A stretch of 37,974 bases of DNA from Acidobacteriota bacterium. GTDB lineage: Bacteria; Acidobacteriota; Vicinamibacteria; Vicinamibacterales; UBA8438. Below the pieces are notes generated by a model. The model saw only the letters and a program-made list of their open reading frames with translations, was not told where the DNA came from and did not search any database. The first letter of the stretch is position 1. Each line of letters begins with the position of its first letter. Of this stretch, positions 10,555 to 31,022 are shown in pieces. The stretch is from assembly GCA_022562495.1 (NCBI GenBank), contig JADFPE010000010.1:1-37974 (forward strand). The letters are read 5' to 3'. The position numbers were made by a program, and so were the translations under genes.

Positions 10555-10905
10555 ATGCCCGTACGAGAAAAGCCGAGCGGCGTCGTCCAGGGCACTCTGG
10601 ACATGCTGATCCTGAAGACCCTGGACCTGGAACCGCTTCATGGGTACGGCATCGGCCTGCGTCTGCACCAGATCAGTCGGGGTGTGCTCGACGTCAACGC
10701 CGGCTCGTTGTTTCCGGCGTTCCGGCGTCTGGAGCGCGACGGTCTGATCACGGGTGAGTGGCGGGCCACCGAGAACAATCGCCGCGCGAAGTACTACTCG
10801 TTGACCAGACGGGGACGGGCGACGCTCGAGCGCGAGACCCGTGAGTGGGAAACCCAGAGCGCGGCGATCGCCAGGGTGCTGCGGGCTTCCCGGAGTGAGC
10901 TGTGA
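10555..10905 (+). CDS. PadR-family transcriptional regulator
   Basis: This is a 116-residue winged-helix regulator. It shows the PadR pattern LDMLILKTLDLEPLHGYGI, the recognition-helix region AGSLFPAFRRLERDGLI and the wing WRATENNRRAKYYSLTRRG, followed by the C-terminal dimerisation helix ERETREWETQSAAIARVL. The length matches the short PadR subfamily found next to permeases in Acidobacteriota. The start ATG 10555 follows GAGGACCGACGAG. Its last bases overlap the GTG start of the permease, so the two are almost certainly one transcript. I infer that it represses this pair in the absence of an inducer, which is unknown. Confidence 0.88.
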   Translation: MPVREKPSGVVQGTLDMLILKTLDLEPLHGYGIGLRLHQISRGVLDVNAGSLFPAFRRLERDGLITGEWRATENNRRAKYYSLTRRGRATLERETREWETQSAAIARVLRASRSEL

Positions 10906-13673: not shown

Positions 13674-14099
13674 ATGCGATCCAGGCGGTTCCGGGTTGGT
13701 CTGACGGCAGTTGTGATGACGTTGGCGTTCGGCGGTCTGCTCTGGGGGACCCTCGCCGAGGGCACCGAGTACTACATGCATGTCGATGAAGTGATGGCCG
13801 AGCCGGACGCGTGGTACGGCAAGAAGCTGCAGGTGCACGGGTTCGTGGTCGAGGGATCACGGCTGTGGAAGCCGGACACGCTGGAAGTCCGGTTCCAGGT
13901 CGAGCACAACGGTGCCGTGATCGACGCCGAGTACACCGGTCTCGTGCCCGACACCTTTCAAGACGGCTCGGAGGTGGTCATCTCGGGCCAGCTCGGTCCC
14001 CACGGTTTCACGGTGGCGCCCAACGGCGTGATGGCCAAGTGCCCATCGAAATATGAGCCCAAGCCCACCCTGGGCTCCGCGGCGTCCAGTAACTGGTAA
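13674..14099 (+). CDS. ccmE: Cytochrome c maturation haem chaperone CcmE, Cys-type
   Basis: This is a 141-residue protein with AGAGGAGG before ATG 13674. It has one N-terminal membrane anchor (LTAVVMTLAFGGLLWGTLA) and the CcmE OB-fold: YYMHVDEVMAEPDAWYGKKL, VHGFVVEGSR, FQVEHNGAVIDAEYTGLVPD and EVVISGQLG. In classic CcmE the haem is held by His in an HxxxY motif. Here the equivalent place reads VMAKCPSKYEP, i.e. Cys in CxxxY, at about residue 122. Cys-type CcmE is known from archaea and some Desulfovibrio-like bacteria (system I*). The gene is followed 35 bases later by ccmF-ccmH. CcmABC, which load haem on CcmE, are not in the window. Confidence 0.9.
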   Translation: MRSRRFRVGLTAVVMTLAFGGLLWGTLAEGTEYYMHVDEVMAEPDAWYGKKLQVHGFVVEGSRLWKPDTLEVRFQVEHNGAVIDAEYTGLVPDTFQDGSEVVISGQLGPHGFTVAPNGVMAKCPSKYEPKPTLGSAASSNW

Positions 14100-14134
14100 C
14101 GAGGCGGAGCCTCGTTACGTCGAGGTCGAACACG

Positions 14135-17899: not shown

Positions 17900-18328
17900 C
17901 TACGGGATCTCGATGTCACGACGATCGCGGATGCGATACGCGAAGGTGATGGAATGCACCTCGGAACTGCCCTTCTTCTTGAAGGTCAGGACGGCCTCGT
18001 ACTCACCGGGAACCGTGAAGATATGCCGCGTCTGGAGCAGGCCAGGGTCTCGCCGGGCTCTTCTCGCGTCGAAGGGTCCGTACTCTGTGCCATCTCGAGT
18101 GATCACCACCGTGGCGTCTTCCAGATCCTCAAACGGCTCGTCGGAGTCGGTGGGCTGAAATCGCCAGCGGAGGTGCTCAATCTCGCCGGTGAGGGCGGGC
18201 TCGGGCTCGGCTCCGAACACCACCACCAAGCCGGCGATCTCCTTGCGTTCGTGAGCCGACGCGAGCGAGGGCAGGAGAACGGCGCCGACGATGCCCGCGA
18301 CCAGTCCGACCACGGTGAGCTGTGTCAT
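17900..18328 (-). CDS. Small exported protein of unknown function
   Basis: This is a 142-residue protein from ATG 18328, preceded by AGAAGGA. It has a clear signal peptide (MTQLTVVGLVAGIVGAVLLP then SLASA, cleavage before HERKE). The mature part looks like an all-beta domain with WRFQPTDSDEPFEDLEDATV and IFTVPGEYEAVLTFKKKG, the kind of Ig-like fold seen in periplasmic proteins; the latter stretch resembles the end of YtkA-like or PKD-like domains. I do not recognise the family. A TATGCT box about 45 bases upstream of the ATG on the minus strand could be a -10. Confidence 0.65.
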   Translation of the reverse strand: MTQLTVVGLVAGIVGAVLLPSLASAHERKEIAGLVVVFGAEPEPALTGEIEHLRWRFQPTDSDEPFEDLEDATVVITRDGTEYGPFDARRARRDPGLLQTRHIFTVPGEYEAVLTFKKKGSSEVHSITFAYRIRDRRDIEIP

Positions 18329-18456
18329 GGTTGCTGTTCCTTCTCGAATGTCTCTCTCCACACTGGGAGCATAGTCGCAATGCGGGGTCGATGACACTCG
18401 GTGTCGTTCGCGCCGAGCCCGGGGCTCGCAGTCGATGGTGAACGTCCAGGGGTGAC

Positions 18457-18794
18457 GTGGTGTGGGAGCGGACCGCGGTCGACGCGACACCCCACGCAGG
18501 GTTTCCTCCCCCGTATGGTAGCGTGGCGTCGAACTCGCCCGTGAGCGATGGTGAGCATGTCTTCACCTATTTCGGTTCACGCGGCCGCCGTCGCTACGAT
18601 CTCGACGGCACGCCTATCTGGCAGCACGATCCGGGTCGGATGAGCACGTGTCTTCCGTGTGGTGAAGGCACGCCACTCGTGCGGCAGGACGATCGATTGA
18701 CCGTCACGTTCGACCATGACGGCGATTCATTCCTCGTGGTCCTCGACACAGCGACCGGCACAGAGCTCTGGCGCGTGGATCGCGACGACGTCAG
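18457..18794 (+). pseudogene. Internal fragment of a PQQ-like beta-propeller protein
   Basis: The frame reads WERTAVDATPHAGF, YGSVASNSPVSDGEHVFTYF, GSRGRRRYDLDGTPIWQHD, DDRLTVTFDHDGDSFLVVLD and TATGTELWRVDRDD. This is one and a half blades of a PQQ-like propeller protein common in Acidobacteriota. There is no proper start, no signal peptide and no continuation; similarity ends within five bases of the nifS stop codon on the other strand. It is a truncated remnant, probably left when the operon to the right was joined to this region. Confidence 0.72.
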
Positions 18795-18795
18795 G

Positions 18796-19929
18796 TCATG
18801 TCGGTCTCGCCGTCCGCAGCGCCCGTACCGACTCCACGACCTGTGCCGTGGCGATGTCGATCTCCTCGGCGGTGTTGAATCGGCCGAGGGAGAACCGCAC
18901 GCTCCCCCGGATTCGCGCCTCGTGGCAGCCCAGGGCGCCCAGCACGTAGCTCGGCTGGAGCAGCGCGCTCGTGCAAGCGGAGCTCGAGGACACCGCGACC
19001 TCAGGCATCGCCTTCATCAGCTTCGCGCCGTCCACGCCGTCGAAGCTCAGATTCGTCGTGTTGGCCAGCCGCTGTGTGGGGTGGCCGTTGATCTCGACCC
19101 CGTCCAGGCCGGAGAGAATCCCGGTTTCCAGCCGGTCTCGCAACGCCCGCACTCCGTCGTCCGCCCGAAGTGTCGCGGCGGCGCCCATGCCGACGATGCC
19201 CGGCACGTTGAGCGTCCCCGATCGCAGACCCCGCTCATGCCCTCCCCCGTGCAGCAGCGCCGCGCAGCGCACACGGGGGTCCCGGCGGCGGACATACAGC
19301 ATGCCGACCCCCTTTGGTCCGTGCATCTTGTGCGCGCTTGCGCTCAGTAGGTCGATCCCCATTGCGTGCACGTCGATCGGTTCCTTGCCGAACGACTGTG
19401 TCGCATCCGTGTGGAACAGCACCCCACGGTCCTTGCAGAGCGCGCCGATGTCCGCAATTGGATGGAGCACGCCGATCTCGTTGTTGGCGTGCATGACCGA
19501 GACCATCAGCGTCTGGTCCGTGATCGCCTTCGTCAGCCGATCCAGATCGAGACAGCCGTCGGAATCGACCCCGAGGTAGGTGACCCTGAACCCTCGCGTT
19601 TCGAGCACCTCGCACGGGTCGAGGACGGCGCGGTGTTCCGTCGCGACCGTGACGATGTGTCTCTTCTTGTAGACAGGAGACTGGGCAACTCCCTGCAGCG
19701 CGAGGTTGTCGGACTCCGTCGCGCCGCTCGTCCAGATGATCTCGCGCGGATCGGCCCCGATCACGGACGCGACCTGTTCGCGCGCCGTCTCGACGGTCTT
19801 CGCGGCGTCGCACCCCAGGACATGATGGCGGCTTGCGGGATTCCCGAAGTGCTCCGTGAAGAACGGCATCATCGCGTCGAGGACGCGTGGGTCGACGGGC
19901 GTCGTAGCGTTGTGATCGAGATAGATCAT
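18796..19929 (-). CDS. nifS: Cysteine desulfurase, NifS/IscS type
   Basis: This is a 377-residue PLP enzyme; the ATG 19929 opens the typical MIYLDHNATTPVDPRV. The PLP-binding Lys (residue 201) is in LLSASAHKMHGPKGVG, the His that stacks on PLP is in VATEHRAVLDP, and the catalytic Cys (319) is in SSSSACTSALLQPS. The length and the SSGSACTS-type loop mark a class I (NifS/IscS) enzyme. It releases sulfur from cysteine for Fe-S clusters or thiolated products. It is the last gene of the nine-gene minus-strand row: its ATG comes one base after the cyclase stop. No iscU partner is adjacent, so it may supply the many Fe-S proteins of this operon or put sulfur into its product. Confidence 0.92.
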   Translation of the reverse strand: MIYLDHNATTPVDPRVLDAMMPFFTEHFGNPASRHHVLGCDAAKTVETAREQVASVIGADPREIIWTSGATESDNLALQGVAQSPVYKKRHIVTVATEHRAVLDPCEVLETRGFRVTYLGVDSDGCLDLDRLTKAITDQTLMVSVMHANNEIGVLHPIADIGALCKDRGVLFHTDATQSFGKEPIDVHAMGIDLLSASAHKMHGPKGVGMLYVRRRDPRVRCAALLHGGGHERGLRSGTLNVPGIVGMGAAATLRADDGVRALRDRLETGILSGLDGVEINGHPTQRLANTTNLSFDGVDGAKLMKAMPEVAVSSSSACTSALLQPSYVLGALGCHEARIRGSVRFSLGRFNTAEEIDIATAQVVESVRALRTARPT

Positions 19930-19930
19930 T

Positions 19931-21607
19931 CTATTCAGCGCAACGCGGGGTCTCACCACAGGCTGCGAGGGCCGCGACCGTGAAGATCAGCGGATAGAGC
20001 TTCTCCGAGTACCAGAGTTTCGCGAAGTAGAGTCCGATTGGCGACGGCTCGAAGTCGGCTCGTTCTTCGAGCCAGCGCCTCCCGCGTGCGTCTCCGAGCG
20101 CGGCGACGGCAAGCGCGGTGTCTTCGATCGGGCCGAAGCTGCCGTCCTCCTGTTGGACGGAGTACAGGAACTGTTGTCCACGTTGCCGCGCCTGGTGAGG
20201 GAGCAGGTCGCCGCACTGGAGCACTCGTGCCGTGCCGTAAACCGGGTTGGTCTGGTCCGCGGTCCACGGATTCCCGAACCAGAGGGGGATCCAGGAGCCG
20301 TCCCCTTGCTGGGATCGCAGGAGATACCGCACCGCGCGTTCCATCGCGCCGTCGATGCGGGGATCGACGGTGCGCCATGCCTGCCAGGCTCTCAGCGCGT
20401 GCGCCGTGAGATCGGGGCTGCTCCGATCGAACGGCAGCGTTCCCCAACCCCGGCAGAACGTCGGGATGCCGCCGTCCGAGTTCTGCACGTCGATCAGCCA
20501 CTTCACACCCGCCGTCGCGGCCGTCCGGATCTCCGGGTCGTCGCCGAGGGCGCACAGCGCCAGGAGCGCACCAGACGTGTCATCGCCGTCGGGAACGCCG
20601 CCAGTGAGATCGGTCCACGCCCAACCGCCCGGCGCGGACTGCGTGTACGGATGCACGACCGTGTACTGCTGATCGAGCAGCCAGCTCCGCAGGTGGCTCC
20701 GTTCCTCCGCAGAGAACGCATCCGCGCCCAGCGCATTGATCGACAGCGTGGTCACCCAGGTCGAGAGATTGGTGTCGATCGGCCAGCTGCCATCGTCACG
20801 AACGGACTCGGTGAGAAACTCGACGCCCTTCCGCGTGACCGGATGATCTCTGAAGCCGCTGCCGGCGAGGCTCATCGTCACGAAACTCGTCAGCGGCGTG
20901 GCTTCCAGGAAGCCGCCCGATTCGGGCTGGATCGATTCCAGGACGCGCAGTGTCCTCCGCTGCGTCACCCTGCGCAGCAGACGGCTCAGTGGGTGCCTGG
21001 TCGGATGATGATGATGCTGCGCCTGCCCGATCGCGATCAGCGCCGGGAGCGCGTAGCTGACGACCGGCAGCCCCACCCGCTTGAACCACGACTGGGGCAG
21101 CGCCGCGAGCTCGAAAGGGAGCGCCGCGATCTGTTCCCACCCGAGCCTGCCGGCCAGCGCGCAGTGGGTCAGGATCGGTATCGAGAAGGTCCGGTCTTCT
21201 CCATAGGCGTCATTGATGGCCTTCGCCATCGACTCAGCCGTCAGCTCCCCGACGCGCTTCGTGAGCCAGGCTTCAGCGCGGGCGACGGCCGACGAGCCGT
21301 GCATGGAGAGTGTTGCCCACGCGAGCGTCGTGGTGCTGATGTTGCTCGGACAGCCTGCGGCATCGCCGAACCCACCGTCCGCATTCTGATCCTCCATCAG
21401 CCAGCGTACGCCGTCGCGCACCAGCACATCGTTCCCGCCGACGAGCGACAGCGCGCAGACGGCCGTTGCCGTCGAGAGTGCGCTCGACGACAGCTCGCCC
21501 TCCCAGTGTCCGGCGGATGTGCGCTCGGCGAGCAGGCGCTCACGCAAGGCTGAGATGCCCCATCGCGAGGAGCGCATAGTAGGTGTATTCGCAGTCCGGC
21601 TCATCAT
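19931..21607 (-). CDS. Squalene-hopene cyclase-like class II terpene cyclase
   Basis: This is a protein of up to 558 residues (an ATG at 21574 gives 547). It is an alpha/alpha-barrel protein with at least five QW-type repeats, e.g. WLMEDQNADGGFGDAAG, FLTESVRDDGSWPID, WLIDVQNSDGGIPTF, YLLRSQQGDGSWIPLW and FLYSVQQEDGSFGP. The catalytic acid motif DxDDT is intact in GGVPDGDDTSGALL at about residue 340, which marks protonation-initiated (class II) cyclisation. The end of the barrel, FGNPWTADQTNPVYGTARVL, matches the NYxYGT region of squalene-hopene cyclases. It is shorter than true squalene-hopene cyclase (about 630), and no squalene-forming enzyme is nearby. A prenyl diphosphate synthase lies two genes upstream, so a prenyl diphosphate or prenyl chain is a likely substrate. 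The 5' end overlaps the preceding gene. Confidence 0.85.
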   Translation of the reverse strand: MMSRTANTPTMRSSRWGISALRERLLAERTSAGHWEGELSSSALSTATAVCALSLVGGNDVLVRDGVRWLMEDQNADGGFGDAAGCPSNISTTTLAWATLSMHGSSAVARAEAWLTKRVGELTAESMAKAINDAYGEDRTFSIPILTHCALAGRLGWEQIAALPFELAALPQSWFKRVGLPVVSYALPALIAIGQAQHHHHPTRHPLSRLLRRVTQRRTLRVLESIQPESGGFLEATPLTSFVTMSLAGSGFRDHPVTRKGVEFLTESVRDDGSWPIDTNLSTWVTTLSINALGADAFSAEERSHLRSWLLDQQYTVVHPYTQSAPGGWAWTDLTGGVPDGDDTSGALLALCALGDDPEIRTAATAGVKWLIDVQNSDGGIPTFCRGWGTLPFDRSSPDLTAHALRAWQAWRTVDPRIDGAMERAVRYLLRSQQGDGSWIPLWFGNPWTADQTNPVYGTARVLQCGDLLPHQARQRGQQFLYSVQQEDGSFGPIEDTALAVAALGDARGRRWLEERADFEPSPIGLYFAKLWYSEKLYPLIFTVAALAACGETPRCAE

Positions 21608-22319
21608 CCGCCCAGTTTCCGCAGAACGCCGCGCCGGTCCAGAGCGTATCGAGAAAATCGAGCGTCTTGTTCTTCAGGTGCGCGACCGAGACGTGCTGCC
21701 CGGATAGCGCGTGCAGCGCGGTCGCCGTGGACAGCAGGTCCGGCATCGGTGCGCCCTCCGTCGCCACGAATCCGCCCTCCGGATGCGCCCGCGCCAAGAG
21801 ATAGCGCACGGCGTCCTGGGGCACCGCCGCCTGCATCTGCCGCAGCAGCGTCACCCCCGCGGCGGTCGTCGGCGTCGTGGTGGCCAGCGATCCGTCCCGG
21901 AAAGGAAACGGTTCCGGCTCCCGCCCCAGATCCTGCAGCGCACCCCACGCGAGAAAGCTGTGATAGACGCTGTCGCGGTTCCACAGCGCGTCGATCCGTC
22001 CCGCCAGGGTCGGGGGGGCCGGCTGCTTCAGCGCCGCCCAGCACCGGGCGAGGCAGCACAGATGCACCAAATCCAGGTCGGTTCCGTCTCCGACACGCTC
22101 CAGGAACAGCCGTACGCGGGGCGGGAGCTCGCGCTGCAGGGCGATCAGTCCCTCCAGGGCGAAGACGGTGTAGTAGAGGTCGCTGTGCCCCGCGCGGTCC
22201 GTCGCCGCGCCATCATCGTTGAACCGGGACAGGAAAAACTCGGCGACCGGATCAGCGGCTTCCTGGAGCAGCGTCGGCGCCAGTCGCGCGACCTGCAGCA
22301 TTTCGAGCCTCAAACTCAC
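21540..22319 (-). CDS. Cyclase-like alpha-barrel protein (prenyltransferase/squalene oxidase repeat)
   Basis: This is a 259-residue protein (an internal ATG at 22301 would remove six residues). It has helix pairs like one barrel of terpene cyclases or a prenyltransferase beta subunit: HSDLYYTVFALEGLIALQ, VHLCCLARCWAAL, SVYHSFLAWGALQDLG, YLLARAHPEGGFVATEGAPM and TYYALLAMGHLSLA. No DxDDT or DDxxD is seen. It overlaps the upstream DUF116-synthase gene by 68 bases and the downstream cyclase gene by 68 bases. I infer that it is either the missing barrel half of the adjacent cyclase, acting as a heteromer, or a scaffold or chain-binding partner. The exact function is unknown. Confidence 0.65.
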   Translation of the reverse strand: MSLRLEMLQVARLAPTLLQEAADPVAEFFLSRFNDDGAATDRAGHSDLYYTVFALEGLIALQRELPPRVRLFLERVGDGTDLDLVHLCCLARCWAALKQPAPPTLAGRIDALWNRDSVYHSFLAWGALQDLGREPEPFPFRDGSLATTTPTTAAGVTLLRQMQAAVPQDAVRYLLARAHPEGGFVATEGAPMPDLLSTATALHALSGQHVSVAHLKNKTLDFLDTLWTGAAFCGNWADDEPDCEYTYYALLAMGHLSLA

Positions 22320-24009
22320 TGCAGTAGCCCTCGATGAGGTTCTCGCCGAAGATCTTGCTGACGATGCGGCGCATCAGGCCCTTGAGGGTCGGGCTCGACA
22401 GGAAGCGGAGCGACCGGATCGCCTCCTCCTTGTAGGCTTCGAGGAGGTCCTCGGCCTTGTCGAGCACGCCCCGCTCCGTCACGATGCGGCGCACCTCGTC
22501 CAGGCACCCGGGCGCGCTCGACCGGATGAAGGACGCGATCCGTTCCTTCTCGGCACCCTGGGCGCGCTTGTGCGCGATGGCGAGAATCAGCGACAGGCGC
22601 ACGTGCTCCAGGTCGTTGGAGTCGCCTTCGCCCGTGAAGTCCTCGAGATCGTCCTTGATCTGATAGCCGATGCCGAGTGACTCGCTGTACGTCGAGAGCA
22701 CGTCGTGCGTCTGCTCGTCCGCGCCGCCGAGAATTGCGCCCAGGCGCAGCGCCACTTCGAAGGCGGCCGCCGTTTTCTGTCGGAAGATCTCCAGGACCTG
22801 CATCGAGGGCAGGGGCTCGGGGTGTCGCGTCCACAGCAGCTCGCGGCCCTGGCCGCGACAGAGCGTCACGTGCCCCTCGGCGGCGACCGCCGTCATGTCC
22901 GGCCGGCCCAGCTCGCCGAGCAGTCGATAGCCTTCGCCCAGCAGGAAGTCGCCGATGTTCAGCGCGACCGGCACGCCGACGACGGTGTGCAGCGCAGGGC
23001 GCTCATAGCGCTGCTCGTCGCCATCCTCGATGTCGTCGTGAATCAAGGACGCCTTGTGGAAGCACTCGACCGCGACGGCCGCCTTCTTCATGTCCGCCGT
23101 CAGCTCGGGCTTGCCGTCCCGACGGTCGCTCTCGAGCGCCATGTAGGTACAGGTAGCGAGGTAGGGACGCCAGCGCTTGCCGCCTGTGGCCAGCCAGTCC
23201 CGCGCGATCTGCGCGGTCTCGTCATCGTCCCCGGCCTCGCCCATGATCGTGTCGAGTGACGCCCTGGCGAACCATCCGCGTACCTCGGTCTTGAGGTCGT
23301 CGAGGTCCAGGCGGTAGGTCTTGTCGTCGGAGGTCAGGTGGATCACGTCCCAGACCCAGTCGAGGTCCACCGTCGTGTTGATGCAGTCGTCCTGCAGCAG
23401 CGGAATCGCGACGCTCGGGACCGCGGCCGCCTCCATGTGCGGGAAGCATTTCTCCAGCACGTTGATGCAGCTGACCCCCACGATCGCTTCGATCTTGCCG
23501 GTCTCGATCATCGACCGGACAATCGCCGACCCCTCCGCCACCAACACCGCGTAGCCCAGACGCTCGGCTTCGACGGTCAGGTCCTGGATGGAGCAGAGGC
23601 CGCACTCCTTGCACAACAGGCCGAACTCGTCGAACGGGGCTGGGCACCGATCCTCCACCCGCAGACACTTCGGGATGAGCAGCAGCCGCCGGTGGTACGG
23701 AATCCGCGCAAGCGAGTCGCGCCAGGCGGCGTTGCTGATCAGGATGGCGATGTAGTCCTTGTAGATCGGGTCGAGGCCGGCCTCCTGGAGGACCGCGCCC
23801 GTGTGCTCCAGCAGCTCGGCCATCGTGAGCGGCGGCACCGCGCCGACCGTCGCGACATAGTCTTCGGTGAGTTTCTTCAGCTGGACCCGTACGTGCTTGT
23901 CATCGGGGATGTTCGACTGCGCCGGGCGGTACTGCTGCCTCGGGACCTGGACGGGCAGCTGCAGCGGGAACACGTGCTTCTCCAGTTTGTCCGGGGTGTC
24001 CTGGATCAT
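22252..24009 (-). CDS. DUF116 - polyprenyl diphosphate synthase fusion
   Basis: This is a 585-residue two-domain protein. After about 50 polar residues, a DUF116 domain spans roughly 80-250, with Cys-rich CLRVEDRCPAPFDEFGLLCK, ECGLCSIQDLTVEAERLGY, GVSCINVLEKCFPHMEAA and PLLQDDCINTT; many Cys suggest Fe-S or metal binding. From about 260 it is an isoprenyl diphosphate synthase with GGKRWRPYLA, the first Asp-rich motif LIHDDIEDGD (about 322) and the second QIKDDLEDFTGEGDSND (about 452). Both Mg-binding motifs are intact, so chain elongation should occur. The product length cannot be judged. Fusion with DUF116 ties prenyl synthesis to the redox genes upstream. ATG 24009 lies 18 bases after the radical SAM stop. 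Confidence 0.87.
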   Translation of the reverse strand: MIQDTPDKLEKHVFPLQLPVQVPRQQYRPAQSNIPDDKHVRVQLKKLTEDYVATVGAVPPLTMAELLEHTGAVLQEAGLDPIYKDYIAILISNAAWRDSLARIPYHRRLLLIPKCLRVEDRCPAPFDEFGLLCKECGLCSIQDLTVEAERLGYAVLVAEGSAIVRSMIETGKIEAIVGVSCINVLEKCFPHMEAAAVPSVAIPLLQDDCINTTVDLDWVWDVIHLTSDDKTYRLDLDDLKTEVRGWFARASLDTIMGEAGDDDETAQIARDWLATGGKRWRPYLATCTYMALESDRRDGKPELTADMKKAAVAVECFHKASLIHDDIEDGDEQRYERPALHTVVGVPVALNIGDFLLGEGYRLLGELGRPDMTAVAAEGHVTLCRGQGRELLWTRHPEPLPSMQVLEIFRQKTAAAFEVALRLGAILGGADEQTHDVLSTYSESLGIGYQIKDDLEDFTGEGDSNDLEHVRLSLILAIAHKRAQGAEKERIASFIRSSAPGCLDEVRRIVTERGVLDKAEDLLEAYKEEAIRSLRFLSSPTLKGLMRRIVSKIFGENLIEGYCSEFEARNAAGRATGADAAPGSR

Positions 24010-24027
24010 CGACGGTCGTCCATACTT

Positions 24028-25326
24028 CTAAGAATACGCGCCAAATCCGAAAAACCAGTGTTTCTTCGCGAAACGATAGACCCAGTTCTCCTCCGGGATC
24101 TCATTGCCCGGATTGTGCTGGCTGGGTCGCGACCGCAGGTCGTTCAACTCGGCCATCGCCGTCTTGCGGATCGTGGTGTCCTGGGCGCCGTGCCGCTCGA
24201 CGATCTGTTTCAGCAGGTCGGGCCGCTCCAGCACGATGCATCCGCGCGTCGCGTTCGCGGCCGTCCGGCGGAAATCCTGCAGCAACGGCGACTCGGTCAT
24301 GGTCTTGTAGATGTCGCCGTCGTTGTCCTGAATCTTCTCAGTGGCGAACTGGATGATCGGGCACGGTTCCACGTCTCCAAACGGACTGATGTGGTGGCTG
24401 ATACCGGTGGCCGCGGGACAGAGCGCCTGTCCCTTGTCGTCCCAGTAGGCGTCGATGAGCCCGATCGGTTTGCGGTTCCGCATGTCCATGACGAACCGGC
24501 GGACCTTCAGCACCTGCTCCGGCGTCAGCGCCAGCTGCGGATTCGACACGGGCCCGACGACTCGGTAGGTGTGGAACCAGCAGTAGTGCACACCCATCTT
24601 GATCAGCTCGTCGATCCACTCTTCCCGCACGAGATCGTCGATGTTGCTCTGACAGACACTCGTCGCCACACCGGTGATCAGCCGGTTCCGGACGCTGGCC
24701 CGGATGCCTTCGAGCGTATGGTTGAGGACGCCCGTCCGACCGCGGCGAGTGTCGCTGATCGACGCGGTCCCCTCCACGCTGATGAGCGGTGTCGCGTTGC
24801 CCGCTTCCCGCAGCTGGCGGGCCATCGCGTTCGTGATGGGATGGCCGTTCGTGAAGATCTGGAAGTAGCAGTCCGGGTGCGCCTTCAGGATCCGGATCAG
24901 ATCCGGATGCATGAACGGTTCGCCGCCCAGGATGCCGAAGAAGCTGTTCCCGTGCTGCTTGGCGTTGTTGATCAGCGTGTTCATGTCGTCGAAGCTGATC
25001 AGGTGCTGCGGCTTGTCCACGTCGACCCAGCACCCCTGGCACCGGAGATTGCAACCGTTGGTGATGGAGATATAGAGGAACGGCGGGAACGTGATCCCTT
25101 GCCGGAGGCGCTTCTTGAAGCGCTGGACCGACCGGATGCCTTTGTAGCCGCAATTGTAGGCGAACTTCCAGAGGACACGCGCATCGGTCGAGCGCAGTGT
25201 CCGGTACCCGAGACCCACGGTCGCTGTCAACATGGCATTGAAGTAGAAACCGGCGAAGCCCCCCGGTTTCCTTCTGACTCCTGTCTCCTGACTGCTGACG
25301 TCTGGAGCACCCGTTAAATCCCCCAC
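24028..25326 (-). CDS. Radical SAM enzyme
   Basis: The frame has 432 residues from GTG 25326; an ATG at 25233 gives 401 and may be the true start, because the first 25 codons cover a low-complexity tract (25271-25299). The radical SAM motif CxxxCxxC is in SITNGCNLRCQGCWVDV, followed by the GGEPFMHPDL (GGE) motif and the LISVEGTASISDTRRG region. Further Cys residues near the end (ALCPAATGISHHISPFGDVE then PCPI, and RGCIVLERPDLL) suggest an auxiliary cluster of SPASM/twitch type. It resembles, but is not clearly, the HpnH family that adds adenosyl to hopanoid skeletons. It would make a 5'-deoxyadenosyl radical to modify a prenyl or terpenoid substrate or a protein. The substrate is unknown. Confidence 0.85.
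   Translation of the reverse strand: MGDLTGAPDVSSQETGVRRKPGGFAGFYFNAMLTATVGLGYRTLRSTDARVLWKFAYNCGYKGIRSVQRFKKRLRQGITFPPFLYISITNGCNLRCQGCWVDVDKPQHLISFDDMNTLINNAKQHGNSFFGILGGEPFMHPDLIRILKAHPDCYFQIFTNGHPITNAMARQLREAGNATPLISVEGTASISDTRRGRTGVLNHTLEGIRASVRNRLITGVATSVCQSNIDDLVREEWIDELIKMGVHYCWFHTYRVVGPVSNPQLALTPEQVLKVRRFVMDMRNRKPIGLIDAYWDDKGQALCPAATGISHHISPFGDVEPCPIIQFATEKIQDNDGDIYKTMTESPLLQDFRRTAANATRGCIVLERPDLLKQIVERHGAQDTTIRKTAMAELNDLRSRPSQHNPGNEIPEENWVYRFAKKHWFFGFGAYS
25271..25299. repeat. Low-complexity CTGACTCCTGTCTCCTGACT tract
   Basis: An imperfect tandem of (T)CTGACT/CTGTCTC units lies where the radical SAM frame begins. It is translated as SSQETG if the GTG at 25326 is used. Similar pyrimidine-biased tracts occur between genes in many genomes, so its presence argues that coding starts downstream (ATG 25233). 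Confidence 0.45.
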
Positions 25327-26189
25327 TCTGCTTCAGAGGGAGCGGGCCGTGCATCCTTCACGGTCTGGGAGCGGGCCTGCCGTTTGGCAAGCTTTGTCCT
25401 GGCCCGGGCGGCGCGCTCTTCGATATCGTCCGCCGACGGGAGGGTCATCAGGACTTCGTCTGGAATATCGAGCTCCTTCTTCAGCTTGCCCAGGCACCGT
25501 TTCCGCTCCAGGAGCGCTTTCGATTCATCTCGCTCGGTCGAGAACCGCTTCCGCGCTTCGCTCTGCCGCGTGCGGAGCGATCCGTACAGGTCCCCGCCGA
25601 GCAGTGTCGAGATGTCGACCTTCATCGCCTCGCGTTGGATGTCCTGGTCCCGCACCTCGTCGCCGTTGATCGGCCCCTTCGCGTACTTGGGGAAGAGAAT
25701 GGCGACCTCAGGACAGACACGCGAGCACGCCGGGCAGTCCGTCTTGCAGTTGTCCTGGTTCTGCACGGTGATTTTTTGTTCCGTGTCCACGCCATAGACG
25801 TCGAAGAGACAGAACGTCAGGCACTGCATGCAGTTGGTGCACCGATCGAAATCGATCACCGGGAACCAGGGCTTCCATGCGTCGAGCGTGCGCGCGCCGG
25901 TCGCCTTGCGGACTTCACGGGCGGCGTCGAGCGCGTTCACCTGGGCCAGGTCGCGGAAGTGCACCTCATGGTCTTCCGCAACGAGCGGCTCGCCATCCAG
26001 CAGTCCCAGGACGAGCACCGGGGCGTCGTCGGGAGGCGCCACCTCCTGTCCTGCGACGGGGCGGGTCACCTCGAAGCCGTTGTCGAGCAAGGAGGAGAGC
26101 ACCTGGTAGCGATCTCCATCGTCCAACGGTGTGCTCCCGGGTCCTTCGTAGAGGATGACGCGCAGGTTTCTGCCTTCGGTCCGGCTCAT
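25314..26189 (-). CDS. Ferredoxin-type 2[4Fe-4S] protein (291 aa)
   Basis: ATG 26189 overlaps the preceding stop (ATGA). Residues 1-110 form an alpha/beta domain without Cys (RVILYEGPGSTPLDDGD, APVLVLGLLDGEPLV). Then come two cluster-binding motifs: CTNCMQCLTFC (CxxCxxCxxxC) and CKTDCPACSRVCP (CxxxCxxCxxxC), spaced by about 30 residues. The C-terminal 100 residues are charged helices and likely coiled coil (RQSEARKRFSTERDESKAL, IEERAARARTKLAKRQ). I infer an electron carrier that links a cellular reductant to the radical SAM or DUF116 proteins of the operon. It is not a simple small ferredoxin, and I do not recognise a named family for the whole chain. Confidence 0.82.
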   Translation of the reverse strand: MSRTEGRNLRVILYEGPGSTPLDDGDRYQVLSSLLDNGFEVTRPVAGQEVAPPDDAPVLVLGLLDGEPLVAEDHEVHFRDLAQVNALDAAREVRKATGARTLDAWKPWFPVIDFDRCTNCMQCLTFCLFDVYGVDTEQKITVQNQDNCKTDCPACSRVCPEVAILFPKYAKGPINGDEVRDQDIQREAMKVDISTLLGGDLYGSLRTRQSEARKRFSTERDESKALLERKRCLGKLKKELDIPDEVLMTLPSADDIEERAARARTKLAKRQARSQTVKDARPAPSEAEWGI

Positions 26190-26500
26190 ACGAGGAGCTC
26201 CTTGACGACGTGCTCCGCGGAGTCCACGCGCATGTTCAGGACGTCGATGCCCTCGTCGGGCAGCGGCGTCCCCGCGGCGTGGAACAGCCACTTCACCGCA
26301 CGCGGGTAGCACGCAACGATTTTGGTGCACCCGCCGTCAGCGATCTTCTTGAGCGCGGGATCTTTTCGCGCCGACATGTCGCAGAGGTCGGCCACGGCGT
26401 CGAACGCCCGACCGGAATCACTGAGTTGGCGCAGCACATCCTGCTTCACGTCCTTCGGGACGACCTTGGCGTAGGTGCAGTTGCAGTAGAGGATCTTCAT
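26186..26500 (-). CDS. Small Cys-containing protein (HdrA N-terminal-like, tentative)
   Basis: This is a 104-residue protein with four-base ATGA overlaps with both neighbours. It starts MKILYCNCTYAKVVP, with a CxC pair, and has further Cys at CDMSARKD and in GGCTKIVACYPRAVKWLFHA. The CNCT start and the ACYPRAV segment recall the small N-terminal domain of HdrA-like heterodisulfide reductase subunits, which binds a [4Fe-4S] cluster, but no FAD domain follows. It is probably a small redox partner of the adjacent ferredoxin. Family assignment is uncertain; that it is a real gene is well supported by the tight packing. Confidence 0.65.
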   Translation of the reverse strand: MKILYCNCTYAKVVPKDVKQDVLRQLSDSGRAFDAVADLCDMSARKDPALKKIADGGCTKIVACYPRAVKWLFHAAGTPLPDEGIDVLNMRVDSAEHVVKELLV

Positions 26501-27597
26501 TGGGTCATCCGATGCGTCGGCACCGGCCGTCCGGGCCGGAGCTGCTCGAGGTGTTCCATGGTGGCCCGGACCCCGCTGAGCGAGGTCACGGCCTCGCGGG
26601 TGACCGATTCAAGGACCGCCGGGTCGGCTTCGGCCCGGAGGTTGATGACCAGCTCACCACGATCCACGCGATCCAGCAGTGATTCCCGCAGGTCGGGCTC
26701 GCCGTCATTCCCAACCAGGCTGACGACCGACAGCGTGCCGGTGCCGTCTCGTGAATCCAGAGTCATCTTGAGATGGGCGATATCCCCACCCTGTGCGACG
26801 ACGCGGTCGCGGATACCGCTGGCCAGATCGACCAGCGTCTGGTTGCCGTCGAACGGTGCGTCCGCCTCCAGCTGCACGGTGCAGTTGAGCCAACCCAGCA
26901 ACGCCTCACCTTCAGCGTACCTGTCGTAGTCTATCTCCAGTGGCCGCGAATCGCGACTGTCCATTGACAGAACGGCGTCAAACCAGGCATCGACGCCCGT
27001 CCCCTCCTTGACCGAACAGACGAATGTCTGCGCACGGGGGAACGTGTCCCCAATCGTGGACACCAGTCTCTCGAGCAACGCTGGCGGATGCGCATCGCAC
27101 TTATTGACGACGATGAGGTCCGCTTCCTCCAGCTGTTTCCGATACACGTAGGTCACCTTCTCGGAGAAGCTGCGGCCTTCGGCCAGCCCGAGAATCCGCG
27201 CGGCGCGCGCGGGATCGATCAACACGCTGAGCGGCGCCACCGTGAACCGGTCGCCATAGATACGGCGCAGCGGATAGGAGACCGTTGCGATGAGATCAGT
27301 GCAGCTCCCGACCGGTTCGGCCAGGAACAGATCGGGTGCTGATGCGCGCCTGAGATTGTCCGCGGCGTCGAGCAGCGAGTTGAAGCGGCAGCAGAAGCAG
27401 CCGCCGGTGATCTCCTCGACGGAAAAGCCCTTGGACCGGAGGAGCACGGTGTCAACCAGTCCGCTGCTCTGGTCGTTGCAGATGAGCCCGACCCGTGTGC
27501 CCCGGTCGGTGAGATGCCGCGCGAGCCGGGCGACCGCGGTTGTCTTCCCCGCGCCGAGGAACCCGCCGATCATGATGTACCGAGCCGGTTCACTCAT
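26497..27597 (-). CDS. CobW/COG0523-family metal-chaperone GTPase
   Basis: This is a 366-residue G3E-family GTPase. It has the P-loop IGGFLGAGKTTAVARL (residues 10-25), the family metal-binding CxCC in ITGGCFCCRFNSLL (about 64-78), the switch/Walker B region LFLAEPVGSCTDL and the base-specificity motif VVNKCD (about 163). The C-terminal part is the variable CobW_C-like domain (MTLDSRDGTGTLSVVSLVGN). Such proteins deliver Zn, Co, Fe or other metals to client enzymes. There is no Zur-like site or zinc gene near it, and its place in this operon suggests a client among the Fe-S, radical or lipoyl proteins. It overlaps the genes on both sides by 8 and 4 bases. Confidence 0.88.
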   Translation of the reverse strand: MSEPARYIMIGGFLGAGKTTAVARLARHLTDRGTRVGLICNDQSSGLVDTVLLRSKGFSVEEITGGCFCCRFNSLLDAADNLRRASAPDLFLAEPVGSCTDLIATVSYPLRRIYGDRFTVAPLSVLIDPARAARILGLAEGRSFSEKVTYVYRKQLEEADLIVVNKCDAHPPALLERLVSTIGDTFPRAQTFVCSVKEGTGVDAWFDAVLSMDSRDSRPLEIDYDRYAEGEALLGWLNCTVQLEADAPFDGNQTLVDLASGIRDRVVAQGGDIAHLKMTLDSRDGTGTLSVVSLVGNDGEPDLRESLLDRVDRGELVINLRAEADPAVLESVTREAVTSLSGVRATMEHLEQLRPGRPVPTHRMTQ

Positions 27598-28039
27598 GAC
27601 GCGTGCCCAGCATCTTGTCGATCGTCGTGTCCAGCAGGGAGACGTAGCCGTGCACGTCGAGGCAGTCGGTGCCCGGCTGTCCCTGCACCTGGAACAACCA
27701 CCCCCTGGTGTACGGCGCGGTCGTCAGCAGGGTGATGTTCTCGTCCAGCGCGGGATTGCTCCCCTCGAAACGGCCCGACAGAGGCGAGAAAATATCGGTC
27801 ACCGCCTTGAAGCCTTCCAGCCAGCCGATGACCTGGCCGGTCTCGACGGGCGATCCTCGTGTCATCTCGAAACCGAGCTCTACGATCTCTCCCAGCATGC
27901 GGACCGCGAACTTGGTGAATCCGATCCGCCAGAGGTCCGCCTCCTCCCGCTCCAGCCAGCTGTGTCCAGCCGTATAGAGTCGGTCTTCGAGTAGGCGCGT
28001 CGAGAACCGCGAGCGCTTGTAGTGCACCTCTCCGGGCAT
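27590..28039 (-). CDS. GcvH-like lipoyl carrier protein
   Basis: This is a 149-residue protein with the H-protein fold: YTAGHSWLEREEADLWRIGF, TKFAVRMLGEIVELGF, then the lipoylation site GWLEGFKAVTDIFSPLSG with Lys 78 as the lipoyl-lysine, and NITLLTTAPYTRGWLFQVQG. The canonical site is ES(V/F)K; here it is EGFK, still with Glu at -3. No glycine cleavage genes (gcvT, gcvP) are nearby. The gene leads the nine-gene row and overlaps cobW by eight bases. H-like proteins outside glycine cleavage are known as carriers, e.g. LbpA in sulfur oxidation, so I infer a swinging-arm carrier for this pathway. The longer upstream frame to 28247 is low in protein character and not used. Confidence 0.83.
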   Translation of the reverse strand: MPGEVHYKRSRFSTRLLEDRLYTAGHSWLEREEADLWRIGFTKFAVRMLGEIVELGFEMTRGSPVETGQVIGWLEGFKAVTDIFSPLSGRFEGSNPALDENITLLTTAPYTRGWLFQVQGQPGTDCLDVHGYVSLLDTTIDKMLGTRHE

Positions 28040-28393
28040 TCTTGTGGCCTACGTCGAACCGGTGGGCGAACGCCGTCGGTCTCGGGATCGCCGTGGAGGG
28101 CGATGTCGTGCTGAACGCCCCGCGCCGTGGCGCCGCGTCACGCTGCGCGCCGATGCTCGCCATCTCGCCTTGCCGAGACGCCGTAGCGACTGTCTCTGTG
28201 CGACGCGGGTCTGTCACCACGGACTGCTCGAGCAAGGCCTCACACACTCTACCTGAAGCTGCGTGTCTTCAGACATTCGGTCGGGGTCGCACATTTCTTG
28301 TGCGGTATCAGTCTCATCGGCGTTGATCATGTTGATCATCCTTCCCTACACGCCACCCTGTTCCGGCGGCCTGACGGAAGTCGAGGAGGAACC
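28040..28393. promoter_or_regulatory. Divergent intergenic region between the nine-gene operon and the response regulator
   Basis: This 354-base region must hold the promoter of the minus-strand operon and of the plus-strand regulator. Visible elements are a six-base-pair inverted repeat CGCACA-TTTCT-TGTGCG (28289-28305) and a tandem GTTGATCAT GTTGATCAT (28323-28340) containing two TGATCA palindromes. Either could be a regulator site. No strong -35/-10 pair is evident. The stretch 28060-28250 shows no gene I can support. Confidence 0.4.
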
Positions 28394-28831
28394 ATGACTC
28401 GTACAGCCAGACCATCGGGCGAGACGATCCTGCTCGTCGAGGACGACCCGTTGATCCGGCGTCTCATCCGGCACATGCTCCAGGGGCAGGGGTACCAGTT
28501 GCTCGAGGCCTGCCACGGCCCCGCGGCGCTCAGTCTCGCAGAGGACCACCGCGGACCGATCGACCTGCTCGTGACCGATGTCGTGATGCCACAGATGGAC
28601 GGGTTCACGCTGGGCGAGCGGCTGGTCGAGTCGCACCCGGAGACCCGGGTGCTGTTCCTGTCGGGCTATGCCGACCAGTCGGCGAGGGTCCGCGACGCGC
28701 TCAAAAAGGTTGGATCGGCGTTTCTGCCCAAGCCGTTCACCCAGAGCGGCCTGCTCCAGAAGATTCGCGTCCAGCTGGACACCGCGGCAGGCCGCGGTCC
28801 GGTCCTGGCGCAGAGCCCGTCGTCGGATTGA
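28394..28831 (+). CDS. Single-domain response regulator
   Basis: This is a 145-residue protein from ATG 28394, which has a strong GAGGAGGA site. It consists of one receiver domain: acidic pair ILLVEDDPLIRRL, phospho-acceptor Asp in DLLVTDVVMPQMDGFTLG, Thr/Ser in VLFLSGYADQ and Lys in FLPKPFTQSGLLQKIR. There is no output domain. The receiver resembles the C-terminal receiver of the hybrid kinase that follows 220 bases later on the same strand, so the two probably form a phosphorelay. It diverges from the nine-gene operon, but a link to its regulation is only suggested by position. Confidence 0.87.
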   Translation: MTRTARPSGETILLVEDDPLIRRLIRHMLQGQGYQLLEACHGPAALSLAEDHRGPIDLLVTDVVMPQMDGFTLGERLVESHPETRVLFLSGYADQSARVRDALKKVGSAFLPKPFTQSGLLQKIRVQLDTAAGRGPVLAQSPSSD

Positions 28832-29028
28832 GCGTGTGAGGAAGGGGAGACCACGATCGTGCAGCGGTCGACCACCGCCGAGCGGGGTCACGGTGCGCGG
28901 TGCAGATCAACGCCATCTCACCGGTCGCCCAGGGTCCAGGGCGTCGTCAGCAACACAGCACAGCGGTGACGTGCATTGCGCGGAGCAGACGACTCAGGCC
29001 GATACAGGATGAGAGGGGGAGCATCGCA

Positions 29029-29055
29029 ATGTCATCGCAACGCGAAGAGACGTGA
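29029..29055 (+). other. Eight-codon leader ORF overlapping the hybrid kinase start
   Basis: ATG 29029 follows a strong purine tract (GAGAGGGGGAG, ending eight bases before). It encodes MSSQREET and stops at TGA 29053-29055, overlapping the GTG at 29052 as GTGA. The arrangement would let ribosomes loaded at the good site reinitiate at the weak GTG. If the GTG is not the true start the reading is moot; no in-frame ATG is available nearby. Confidence 0.4.
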
Positions 29056-31022
29056 CCGAGCACAGGCGCGTCGATCGGGAGCTGGCTGAAGTCCAGGCGA
29101 ATTACCGGGTCCTGGTAGAGGGCTGTCAGCTGGGCGTCTACATCATCCAGGATGACCGATACGTGTATGTCAATTCATGGATGACGGAGATTTTTGGGCG
29201 CACCGAGGAGGAGTTCCTCGCCTTGCCAAGCGTCACGCGTGCGGTCTCCAAGGCTGACCGTACAGCCGTCGCGGCACAGATGGAGCGGCGGCTGAGAGGC
29301 GAGACGGCATCGTCCACCTACATGTTCCGAACGCGACATGCGGACGGTCACCGAATGCAGATCGAGGTCCACGGCGGACGCACCAACATCAAGGGACGAC
29401 CCGCTGTCATCGGGACGATGTTCGATGTCACCGAACGCGAAGACATTCACGACAAGCTCAGGCGCACAGAGCGGCAATATCGGGAGCTGTTCGAGGAAGC
29501 TCCGCTGATGTACGTCATCACCCGGAACGAGGGCGGCAGGTCGGTCATCGAAGACTGTAATCGCAGTTTCTTGACGAGCCTGGGCTACGCTCGTGACGAG
29601 GTCGTGGGCCGCGAGATGACCGAGTTCTCCAGGCCCTCATCTCCTGAGCCTGGTGAACTATGGGGCCAGGATGCGGTCCCGGGCAGCGTCAGCGACCAGG
29701 AACGACAGCTGATTCGCAAAGATGGCGGTGTGCTGGAGACACTCATGCGTACGGTGCCGCTCTATGAGGAAGACGGACGGATGTGCGGCGAACGGGCGAT
29801 GTACATCGACATTTCACAGCGGCGCACGGCCGAGCGGGAGATCTTCAGCCTCCAAGCGCAGCTGTTGCAGAGCCAGAAGGTCGAGGCCATCGGGAGACTC
29901 GCTGGTGGGGTCGCTCACGACTTCAACAACGTCCTGACGGCCGTGCTCGGCTACAGCCAGATGCTGCTCGAACAGATCGACGAAGACAAGCCGATGTACG
30001 CGGACCTCAAAGAGATTCAGAGGGCCGCCGAGCGGGCCGCGTCGCTCACGCGGCAGCTCCTGACCTTCAGCCGTCAGCAAGTGCTGGACCTGGTCGTCAT
30101 CGACCTGAACCGGGTCGTGAGTGAGTTAGAGCAGATGCTGCAGCGGCTGATCGGCGAAGACGTCATCATGGCCACGCAGCTGGCGCCGGCGCCGTGTGTC
30201 ATCAAAGCCGACCAGACACAGCTGGAGCAGATCCTCGTGAACCTGGCTGTGAACGCCCGTGATGCTATGCCCTCGGGCGGTCGTCTGACCATCGAGACGG
30301 CGAACATCACCTATGCGAGGGCTCACGCCGGGGATGGAGAGACGGTACCCCCGGGACGCTACGTGCGGCTCTCGGTCAGCGACACCGGCTGTGGCATGAC
30401 TCCAGACACCCGGGTTCGTGTGTTCGAGCCGTTCTTCACGACGAAAGAGAAGGGCAAGGGGACCGGCCTGGGTCTCGCCACTGTCGACGGAGCGGTCAGA
30501 CAGCTCGGGGGCTTCATCTTCGTGCGCAGCCAGCTGCAACAGGGGACGACGTTCGAGATCTTTCTGCCACGCTGTGACGAAGTCGTGAACCAGCCACGGG
30601 CTGAAGAGCGGACCGGGACCGAGATCGGCGCCGGCGAGATGGTCCTGCTCGTCGAGGATGATCCGATCGTCAGGAACTTCTCGGCTCGCGTGCTGACGCG
30701 ACACGGCTACCGCGTGCTCGAAGCCGAATCCGCGGATCGAGCCCTCACCCTCTCGGACGAGTTCTCGGACCCGATACATCTGCTCCTCGCCGACGTGGTC
30801 ATGCCCGGCATGAGCGGATCGGACCTGGCTGCAATCATTGAAACCCGGCGGCCCGGCACGAAGATTCTCTTCATGTCCGGGTACACCGGCGATCTGGCGA
30901 AGAACGTTCTCAGACGAGGCGTGGGGTTGCTCGAGAAGCCGTTTTCCGCGGACACGCTGTTGCGGCGGATACGGCGAGTGCTCGACGGTGACCCGGCCCG
31001 AGATGATGACGCGACAGCGTGA
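29052..31022 (+). CDS. Hybrid sensor histidine kinase (PAS-PAS-HisKA-HATPase-REC)
   Basis: This is a 656-residue protein without membrane helices, so probably cytoplasmic. Two PAS domains come first (about 15-130, YRVLVEGCQLGVYIIQDDRY; about 135-275, YRELFEEAPLMYVITRNEGG). The HisKA motif follows, with the phospho-accepting His in GRLAGGVAHDFNNVLTAVLG (about residue 289). The ATPase domain has the N box LVNLAVNARDAMPSGG, the G1 box SDTGCGMT and the G2 box GKGTGLGLATVDG. The C-terminal receiver has Asp in LLLADVVMPGMSG (about 579) and Lys in GLLEKPFSADTLL. No haem or flavin signature is seen in the PAS domains, so the signal is unknown. The partner is probably the regulator at 28394. Confidence 0.92.
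   Translation: MTEHRRVDRELAEVQANYRVLVEGCQLGVYIIQDDRYVYVNSWMTEIFGRTEEEFLALPSVTRAVSKADRTAVAAQMERRLRGETASSTYMFRTRHADGHRMQIEVHGGRTNIKGRPAVIGTMFDVTEREDIHDKLRRTERQYRELFEEAPLMYVITRNEGGRSVIEDCNRSFLTSLGYARDEVVGREMTEFSRPSSPEPGELWGQDAVPGSVSDQERQLIRKDGGVLETLMRTVPLYEEDGRMCGERAMYIDISQRRTAEREIFSLQAQLLQSQKVEAIGRLAGGVAHDFNNVLTAVLGYSQMLLEQIDEDKPMYADLKEIQRAAERAASLTRQLLTFSRQQVLDLVVIDLNRVVSELEQMLQRLIGEDVIMATQLAPAPCVIKADQTQLEQILVNLAVNARDAMPSGGRLTIETANITYARAHAGDGETVPPGRYVRLSVSDTGCGMTPDTRVRVFEPFFTTKEKGKGTGLGLATVDGAVRQLGGFIFVRSQLQQGTTFEIFLPRCDEVVNQPRAEERTGTEIGAGEMVLLVEDDPIVRNFSARVLTRHGYRVLEAESADRALTLSDEFSDPIHLLLADVVMPGMSGSDLAAIIETRRPGTKILFMSGYTGDLAKNVLRRGVGLLEKPFSADTLLRRIRRVLDGDPARDDDATA

Follow-up and report, generated by a model that had tools for sequence, protein, structure and literature searches.

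The Operon and Its Nine Genes

The Acidobacteriota contig JADFPE010000010.1 (37,974 nucleotides; this whole stretch is called the window below) belongs, as contig C46, to a 4.74 Mb genome with a completeness of 89.7%. Nine tightly packed genes on its minus strand, at positions 18796–28039, form the operon considered here, in which genes for a lipoyl carrier and for iron–sulfur (Fe-S) and radical S-adenosylmethionine (SAM) proteins adjoin genes for a polyprenyl synthase and a class II terpene cyclase. In the 5′ to 3′ direction of the operon, the genes are gcvH, cobW, cys, fd, rSAM, DUF116-synthase, toroid, SHC, and nifS:

27590–28039, minus strand: gcvH, GcvH-like lipoyl carrier of 149 amino acids (GCV_H, 6.4e-18); codon of the lipoyl Lys78 at 27806–27808
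26497–27597, minus strand: cobW, CobW/COG0523-type GTPase of 366 amino acids (cobW, 3.4e-23), with Walker A and C67-x-C69-C70
26186–26500, minus strand: cys, small four-Cys protein of 104 amino acids, with conserved Cys (C6, C8, C40, C64)
25314–26189, minus strand: fd, 2[4Fe-4S] ferredoxin-domain protein of 291 amino acids (Fer4_10, 3.8e-7), with an N-terminal domain without assignment
24028–25233, minus strand: rSAM, radical SAM protein (Radical_SAM, 6.1e-16) with CxxxCxxC; a longer frame from GTG 25326 gives the 432-amino-acid numbering
22252–24009, minus strand: DUF116–polyprenyl synthase fusion (DUF116, 4.5e-35, residues 84–222; polyprenyl_synt, 2e-45, residues 266–511); synthase Asp motifs DDIED at 23023–23037 and DDLED at 22639–22653
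21540–22319, minus strand: toroid, single α/α toroid protein of 259 amino acids (Prenyltrans, 6.7e-6)
19931–21607, minus strand: SHC, DxDDT class II cyclase of 558 amino acids, squalene–hopene cyclase (SHC)-like (SQHop_cyclase_C, 2e-23); DGDDT at 20576–20590
18796–19959, minus strand: nifS, NifS/IscS-type cysteine desulfurase (Aminotran_5, 7e-87); likely start at ATG 19929

All nine open reading frames lie where the initial annotation had placed them, and its domain calls hold in Pfam and NCBIfam. The overlaps that it described (4–68 bases) and the 18-base gap between rSAM and DUF116-synthase are also borne out: gcvH and cobW overlap by 8 bases, cobW and cys by 4, cys and fd by 4 (ATGA), and the synthase–toroid and toroid–SHC pairs by 68 each. 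Its upper limit of 18 bases for the gaps probably does not stand. Most aligned relatives of the radical SAM protein start at a Met matching residue 32 of the longer frame, so its start is probably at 25233 rather than at GTG 25326, which leaves a gap of 80 bases to fd. The ferredoxin-domain protein starts at ATG 26189 (a correction to an earlier label), and for NifS the likely start is ATG 19929, a single base past the cyclase stop. A simple sigma-70 scan of positions 18000–29100 found one site, at the SHC–nifS junction, against 0.9 expected in shuffled sequences; this lack of any sign of separate internal promoters is weak evidence against them.

Recurrence of the Gene Set Across Phyla

A scan of contigs with the DUF116–synthase fusion as the query yielded at least 563 confirmed stretches, from which the best 80 loci were kept and all 80 examined. 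Genes were called present by phmmer scores with author-set thresholds, on the same strand and within about 10 kb, in loci with enough flank. Among these best 80 of at least 563, the upstream side carries gcvH in 30 of 37 loci, cobW in 28, cys in 30, fd in 31, and rSAM in 33, and the downstream side carries toroid in 43 of 51 loci, SHC in 41 of 51, and nifS in 22 of 32. The initial annotation had proposed a gene-neighborhood search and had taken non-recurrence of the set as the result that would speak against a joint pathway. The set recurs: 20 of the 32 loci with full flanks have all nine genes, 24 have the eight besides nifS, and four have the synthase with at most rSAM.

By record title, the loci belong to Acidobacteriota, Planctomycetota, and Verrucomicrobiota, with one or two loci each from Hydrogenedentota and Omnitrophota; the closest relatives of the window's locus are in records titled Vicinamibacterales, Vicinamibacteria, or Acidobacteria. 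No tenth conserved family was recognized in an all-against-all comparison of neighboring frames of at least 110 amino acids. The other clusters in this comparison are, judged by position, mostly overlapping reading frames of the nine genes, and ten neighboring frames of the verrucomicrobial loci L058 and L093 gave nothing informative.

Co-occurrence, Split Loci, and Co-divergence

The fusion is present in 10 of 396 genomes of the window's phylum (its own genome included) and, at 1e-30, in 69 of 294 Planctomycetota genomes, where a few matches cover one domain only. The radical SAM family (E < 1e-130) is found in 59 of these 294 genomes, all of them within the 69 fusion carriers and none among the other 225 (59 with both, 10 with the fusion only, 225 with neither; Fisher p 5.7e-52, uncorrected for kinship). 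The two genes are not seen linked in 24 of the 59 co-carriers, being on different contigs in 15 and more than 15 kb apart in 9.

No cyclase is seen in 29 of the 80 loci, and 22 show neither cyclase nor toroid, many by a contig end. The genomes of 18 of these 22 loci, all with Verrucomicrobiota-type titles, were searched, and a cyclase is encoded in 18 of 18 (E 1e-220 or better); only 8 of the 18 loci extend 5.5 kb past the synthase, so that a separate location of the cyclase is established for eight at most. Ten of the cyclase regions were inspected at greater length: five contain the toroid gene (one also with cobW, another with gcvH), and none contains the synthase, several of these contigs being short. 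Among the 20 further Planctomycetota loci considered below, five diverged ones (L109, L110, L111, L113, and L114) have gcvH, fd, the cyclase, and the synthase side by side, with rSAM at another place in the genome.

Pairwise distances within eight families, taken over 34 loci and the window, are correlated with r of 0.52–0.91 (uncorrected for the species tree), and none of 500 permutations gave so high a value for any of the 28 pairs. The synthase tree (41 rows: 40 of the 80 loci and the window) has four changes of the Acidobacteriota label on well supported branches, which may also reflect binning error or paralogy. Linkage, co-occurrence when unlinked, and matched divergence make it very likely that the synthase, the radical SAM protein, the cyclase, the H-like protein, and the ferredoxin serve one pathway, and by linkage cobW, cys, toroid, and nifS are likely to belong to it as well. 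The idea of the initial annotation that the redox and terpene halves act as one functional unit is thus upheld by recurrence, by the co-occurrence of rSAM with the fusion, and by the cyclase in all 18 searched genomes whose synthase locus shows none.

Substrate of the Cyclase

SHC-family terpenoid cyclization is known from squalene and tetraprenyl-curcumene. In the sesquarterpene (tetraprenyl-β-curcumene) pathway of Bacillus, a long-chain prenyl synthase feeds an SHC-family cyclase. Squalene/phytoene synthase (PF00494) was not found in the window's own genome (89.7% complete). It was also not found in 4 of the 9 other Acidobacteriota carriers and in 12 of a further 49 carriers, which are the genomes of those of the 80 loci with a strong cyclase match. 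In total, 17 of 59 carriers show no PF00494 (the sets may overlap), one of which, G183, is 99% complete. Tetraprenyl-curcumene synthase (DUF2600) was found in none of the 17 by a search that detected the positive control in B. subtilis.

Because neither PF00494 nor DUF2600 was found there, it is probable that the cyclase in these 17 genomes works outside the known squalene and sesquarterpene routes, and the most likely supplier of its substrate is the operon's own synthase. A squalene-independent cyclization of a polyprenoid longer than C20 is therefore likely in the 17 genomes, and in this part of the carriers (17 of 59) the cyclase route is probably not ordinary hopanoid synthesis, in line with the undescribed pathway that the initial annotation had envisaged. 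A small residue at position −5 from the first Asp motif of a prenyl synthase allows products longer than C20; the operon synthase has Ala at this position, in contrast to the Tyr of the solved C20 synthase 1wy0.

In the window's genome, the operon cyclase is the sole match to PF13243 above the cut-off, with one weak match on contig C78. Its best solved relative is the SHC 1gsz, with which it shares DxDDT and the matching His403. Against the SHC model TIGR01507, it scores 94.8 bits, compared with a cut-off of 431.1. For the PF00494-free carriers, the hopanoid pathway proper was rejected on this score and on the missing squalene synthase, and the sesquarterpene pathway on the count of 0 of 17 for DUF2600.

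Conservation of Active-Site Residues

Conservation was assessed at ≥95% of rows in families of 31–81 rows, from which members below set score thresholds had been dropped. At this level, CobW keeps Walker A and C67-x-C69-C70; the four-Cys protein, Cys 6, 8, 40, and 64; the ferredoxin, its eight cluster Cys (arranged in two clusters) and C279; the radical SAM protein, C92, C96, C99, C153, C225, C303, C322, and C363; the DUF116 domain, seven Cys; the synthase, both DDxxD motifs; the cyclase, D340xD342D343T344 and His403; and NifS, Lys211 and Cys329, which we take to be the pyridoxal 5′-phosphate Lys and the catalytic Cys, respectively. Lys78 of the GcvH-like protein is conserved in 44 rows, is invariant in 27 aligned sequences, and is retained in all 9 of the further relatives that were found.

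A diverged sample of 20 further loci was chosen among the 69 Planctomycetota carriers, many with about 37% identity in the fusion, and residues were counted where the gene was found. The eight ferredoxin Cys are kept in 14 of 14 (C279 in only 4), the six conserved radical SAM Cys that were checked in 7 of 7, the DUF116 Cys in 18 of 20, and DxDD(T/S) with its His in 13 of 13 cyclases, a 14th cyclase match being cut off. The second synthase motif is NDxxD in the diverged class; the Ala at −5 of the first motif is conserved throughout, including 20 of 20 of the diverged loci. Active-site residues thus mostly persist down to about 37% identity.

Some relatives depart from this pattern. Two relatives of the fusion (L119, 8506–10470; L124, 8409–10469) have a DUF116 part without several or all of the conserved Cys and intact synthase Asp motifs, and are perhaps paralogues without Fe-S. 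A radical SAM homologue with 37–40% identity to that of the window adjoins the operon in L086 (15965–17221) and L094 (4420–5703); it may serve a different step or be a replacement. One TGA falls within the DUF116–synthase match in each of L031 (genome G409) and L086 (genome G440), and could stem from misassembly or from a stop lying barely inside the match.

Lipoyl Protein and Cysteine Desulfurase

The GcvH-like protein aligns with solved H-proteins and has the lipoyl Lys, and its score of 65.7 against TIGR00527 is below the H-protein cut-off of 115.85. Lipoylation is possible, since all 15 carriers tested have LipA. LbpA, the lipoyl protein of sulfur oxidation, has two strictly conserved Cys near its N and C termini, with some archaeal exceptions, according to the accessible part of the source (PMC6067878). 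No invariant or near-invariant Cys occurs in 27 sequences of the GcvH-like family, and membership in the LbpA group was rejected on the lack of these two Cys. The H-like arm may work like both GcvH and LbpA in presenting something to several sites. The strongest indication of a direct role in that pathway, the making of the lipid, is that its gene stays by the cyclase and synthase genes in the five diverged loci that have rSAM elsewhere.

The NifS tree splits into two deep clades, both fully supported, whose genes mostly occupy opposite ends of the operon. Of the 12 copies upstream of gcvH, 10 are in one clade; the other comprises all 19 downstream copies (including that of the window) and the 2 remaining upstream ones. 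This fits a desulfurase that joined or was replaced more than once, and one ancient change is also possible; the link of the desulfurase to the pathway is suggestive only.

Features of the Other Products

The polyprenyl synthase half scores 155.4 bits against a Pfam gathering score of 27, with both DDxxD motifs present, and the model of the DUF116 domain has a predicted local distance difference test (pLDDT) value of 63.5. NifS reaches 292.2 bits with Aminotran_5 (cut-off 21.5) and 501.5 with the IscS model, below its cut-off of 548.

The four-Cys protein has no Pfam or NCBIfam match. Its AlphaFold2 model (pLDDT 91.8) has a Rossmann-like fold and aligns with six HdrA-type chains over 99 residues (VIA-align Z 5.5–6.5), a result tied by other Rossmann-like folds with Z up to 7.0. 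There is no sequence match between this protein and HdrA, and no match to the HdrA family NF041778 in the window's own genome.

The toroid protein scores 26.2 with Prenyltrans, slightly below the gathering score of 26.5, and its profile matches are to the β subunits of Rab geranylgeranyltransferase and farnesyltransferase and to class II cyclases. It was compared, over weak stretches of alignment, with 6o60 at positions that we take to be the zinc ligands Asp, Cys, and His of a protein prenyltransferase β subunit: Asp is kept as D194, Leu196 is at the Cys position, and Tyr50 is at the His position. As far as this weak alignment goes, the latter two residues make a role as a zinc protein prenyltransferase less probable, yet the family has a conserved patch of D83, H86, C89 (89% of 57 rows), and C93 (93%). 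Judged by its residues, this patch may be a metal site, for which CobW would be a natural supplier.

Proposed Pathway and Alternative Explanations

We propose that the product of the operon is a cyclic polyprenoid longer than C20, made by a squalene-independent pathway that includes a lipoyl-carrier/Fe-S/radical SAM step, a proposal for which we see the chances as evenly balanced. Judging from its motifs, the synthase half would make an all-trans polyprenyl diphosphate longer than C20. The DxDDT cyclase, given its conserved Asp and His, would protonate the tail of this chain or a derivative and close the rings, and the toroid protein may assist as its prenyl-binding partner. DUF116, the two-cluster ferredoxin, the four-Cys protein, and the lipoylated H-like protein could constitute a relay of low-potential electrons and of substrate or sulfur to the radical SAM protein, which may act on the prenyl chain or on a group replacing its diphosphate. 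NifS would give sulfur to the Fe-S clusters, and possibly to the product, and CobW would handle a metal. A more specific form of this scheme is carrier-tethered terpenoid synthesis, in which the prenyl chain or the diphosphate-replacing group is held on the H-like lipoyl arm while DUF116, the ferredoxin, and the radical SAM protein reduce, sulfurate, or couple it and the cyclase closes the rings; as specified, this form is unlikely.

Several points weigh against the proposed pathway. We infer the product, the order of the steps, and the role of lipoate. Ten of the 69 Planctomycetota fusion carriers have no radical SAM match at E < 1e-130, and 11 further genomes have a weaker radical SAM relative (E 1e-60 to 1e-70) and no fusion; these 11 were set apart as a separate family, and with them included the overlap is 59 of 70. 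The loci were gathered through a synthase query, so that the cyclase counts cover synthase-bearing genomes, and kinship enters uncorrected into both the distance correlations and the Fisher test. The toroid, cobW, and four-Cys genes are frequently absent from the locus in the 20 diverged or split loci that were chosen. PF00494 is present in 42 of the 59 carriers, where squalene is possible, and genomes may be incomplete, as the window's own is at 89.7%.

The presence of PF00494 in those 42 carriers, together with the SHC-like character of the cyclase (DxDDT and the matching His), would suit a hopanoid operon in which the cyclase is an SHC variant and maturation or modification of the hopanoid falls to the redox genes. 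This explanation is distinctly improbable, since 17 of the 59 carriers, including the window's genome and one that is 99% complete, have no PF00494, the cyclase is far below the SHC cut-off (94.8 vs. 431.1 bits), and the operon has a prenyl synthase of its own. Alternatively, the redox genes may have no part in lipid chemistry and may supply Fe-S clusters, metal, and electrons to the radical SAM protein alone, with the lipoyl protein as a redox relay. NifS and CobW are of maturation-type families, NifS falls into two clades, and cobW and cys are often missing in diverged loci, all of which is consistent with a supply function; however, the H-like protein and ferredoxin genes stay beside those of the cyclase and synthase in L109, L110, L111, L113, and L114 with rSAM elsewhere, an arrangement more in keeping with direct participation in the lipid pathway, and the supply explanation is doubtful.

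Sulfur could also be the point of the system, with the lipoyl protein carrying it as LbpA does and the radical SAM protein inserting sulfur from NifS to give a sulfur-containing terpenoid. LbpA provides a precedent in the accessible part of its description (PMC6067878), a desulfurase (of two clades) is present in 22 of the 32 full-flank loci, and the extra conserved Cys of the radical SAM protein could hold an auxiliary cluster. Yet the two conserved Cys of LbpA are missing, no known sulfur-insertion enzyme is among the best 25 of the 53 NCBIfam matches of the radical SAM protein (all below cut-off), and desulfurases also serve ordinary Fe-S assembly, and this explanation as a whole is improbable. 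Finally, the genes might be neighbors by chance or hitchhiking. No point in favor of this was found, and recurrence across phyla, correlated distances, co-occurrence of unlinked rSAM and fusion genes, and the cyclase in 18 of 18 searched genomes whose synthase locus shows none lead us to reject it as barely credible. The preferred explanation remains the squalene-independent pathway.

Relation to Known Systems

Nearly every part of the operon comes from a known family, and the related known kind of system is the bacterial class II terpenoid operon. The initial annotation knew of no described pathway with this gene set, and none was found in the open-licence literature: the accessible parts of PMC5898192, PMC8692599, PMC12628686, PMC8303584, PMC6067878, and PMC10332631 do not describe it. 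The fusion alone was noted in 2015, when Psta_0175 of Pirellula staleyi was recognized as a DUF116–polyprenyl synthetase fusion and DUF116 was proposed to act in electron transfer (PMC5898192). Psta_0175 has the same domain fusion as the operon described here, and the accessible part of that article mentions no operon or pathway.

The operon shares with the hopanoid pathway a class II cyclase that has both DxDDT and the corresponding His, and differs in having its own prenyl synthase, a toroid protein, and lipoyl and Fe-S genes, and in that PF00494 was not found in 17 of 59 carriers. With the Bacillus sesquarterpene pathway it shares a prenyl synthase and an SHC-family cyclase, but DUF2600 was not found (0 of 17) and lipoyl and rSAM genes are present. 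The sHdr–LbpA system of sulfur oxidation resembles the operon in linking a GcvH-like lipoyl protein with Fe-S and radical SAM proteins, and possibly in an HdrA-like small protein, as far as the accessible parts of its descriptions go (PMC6067878, PMC10332631). Here, by contrast, terpene genes and an ordinary LipA are present, and the two Cys of LbpA are absent; a Pfam scan recognized no shdr-type genes among the 29 window frames that it covered, LipS1/S2 and sLpl not being searched by name. The adenosyl-hopene transferase HpnH is likewise a radical SAM enzyme of terpenoid metabolism, and the operon's radical SAM protein scores 38.6 bits with its model TIGR03470 (cut-off 225.05), in a match confined to residues 70–247.

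What is new here is an SHC-family cyclase that comes with a fused prenyl synthase of its own, is associated with a radical SAM protein and a lipoyl carrier, and is found partly in genomes in which no squalene synthase was detected. The gene set is widespread, and from it we predict a class of lipids, as yet undescribed, in soil and marine bacteria of several phyla; an SHC-like gene alone is an insufficient basis for inferring hopanoid production. The pathway could add another role of lipoate outside central metabolism; the carrier-tethered form, if true, would parallel acyl-carrier biosynthesis on the terpenoid side and give lipoate a new role. The pathway is testable because some of its Planctomycetota carriers have single-contig genomes and because, according to the accessible part of PMC5898192, the named species P. 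staleyi has the fusion.

Neighboring Genes in the Window

Adjoining the operon, on the plus strand at 13674–16615, are genes of cytochrome c maturation, encoding CcmE (13674–14099) and a CcmF frame with a CcmH-like tail (14135–16615). The window also encodes a pyrroloquinoline quinone-dehydrogenase-type propeller protein (7138–9324) and two MacB/FtsX-type proteins, a permease at 10902–13601 and a second at 35392–37818. A divergent gene at 29052–31022, beginning some 1 kb upstream of the operon, encodes a hybrid PAS–histidine kinase with a fused receiver domain and is a possible regulator of the operon.

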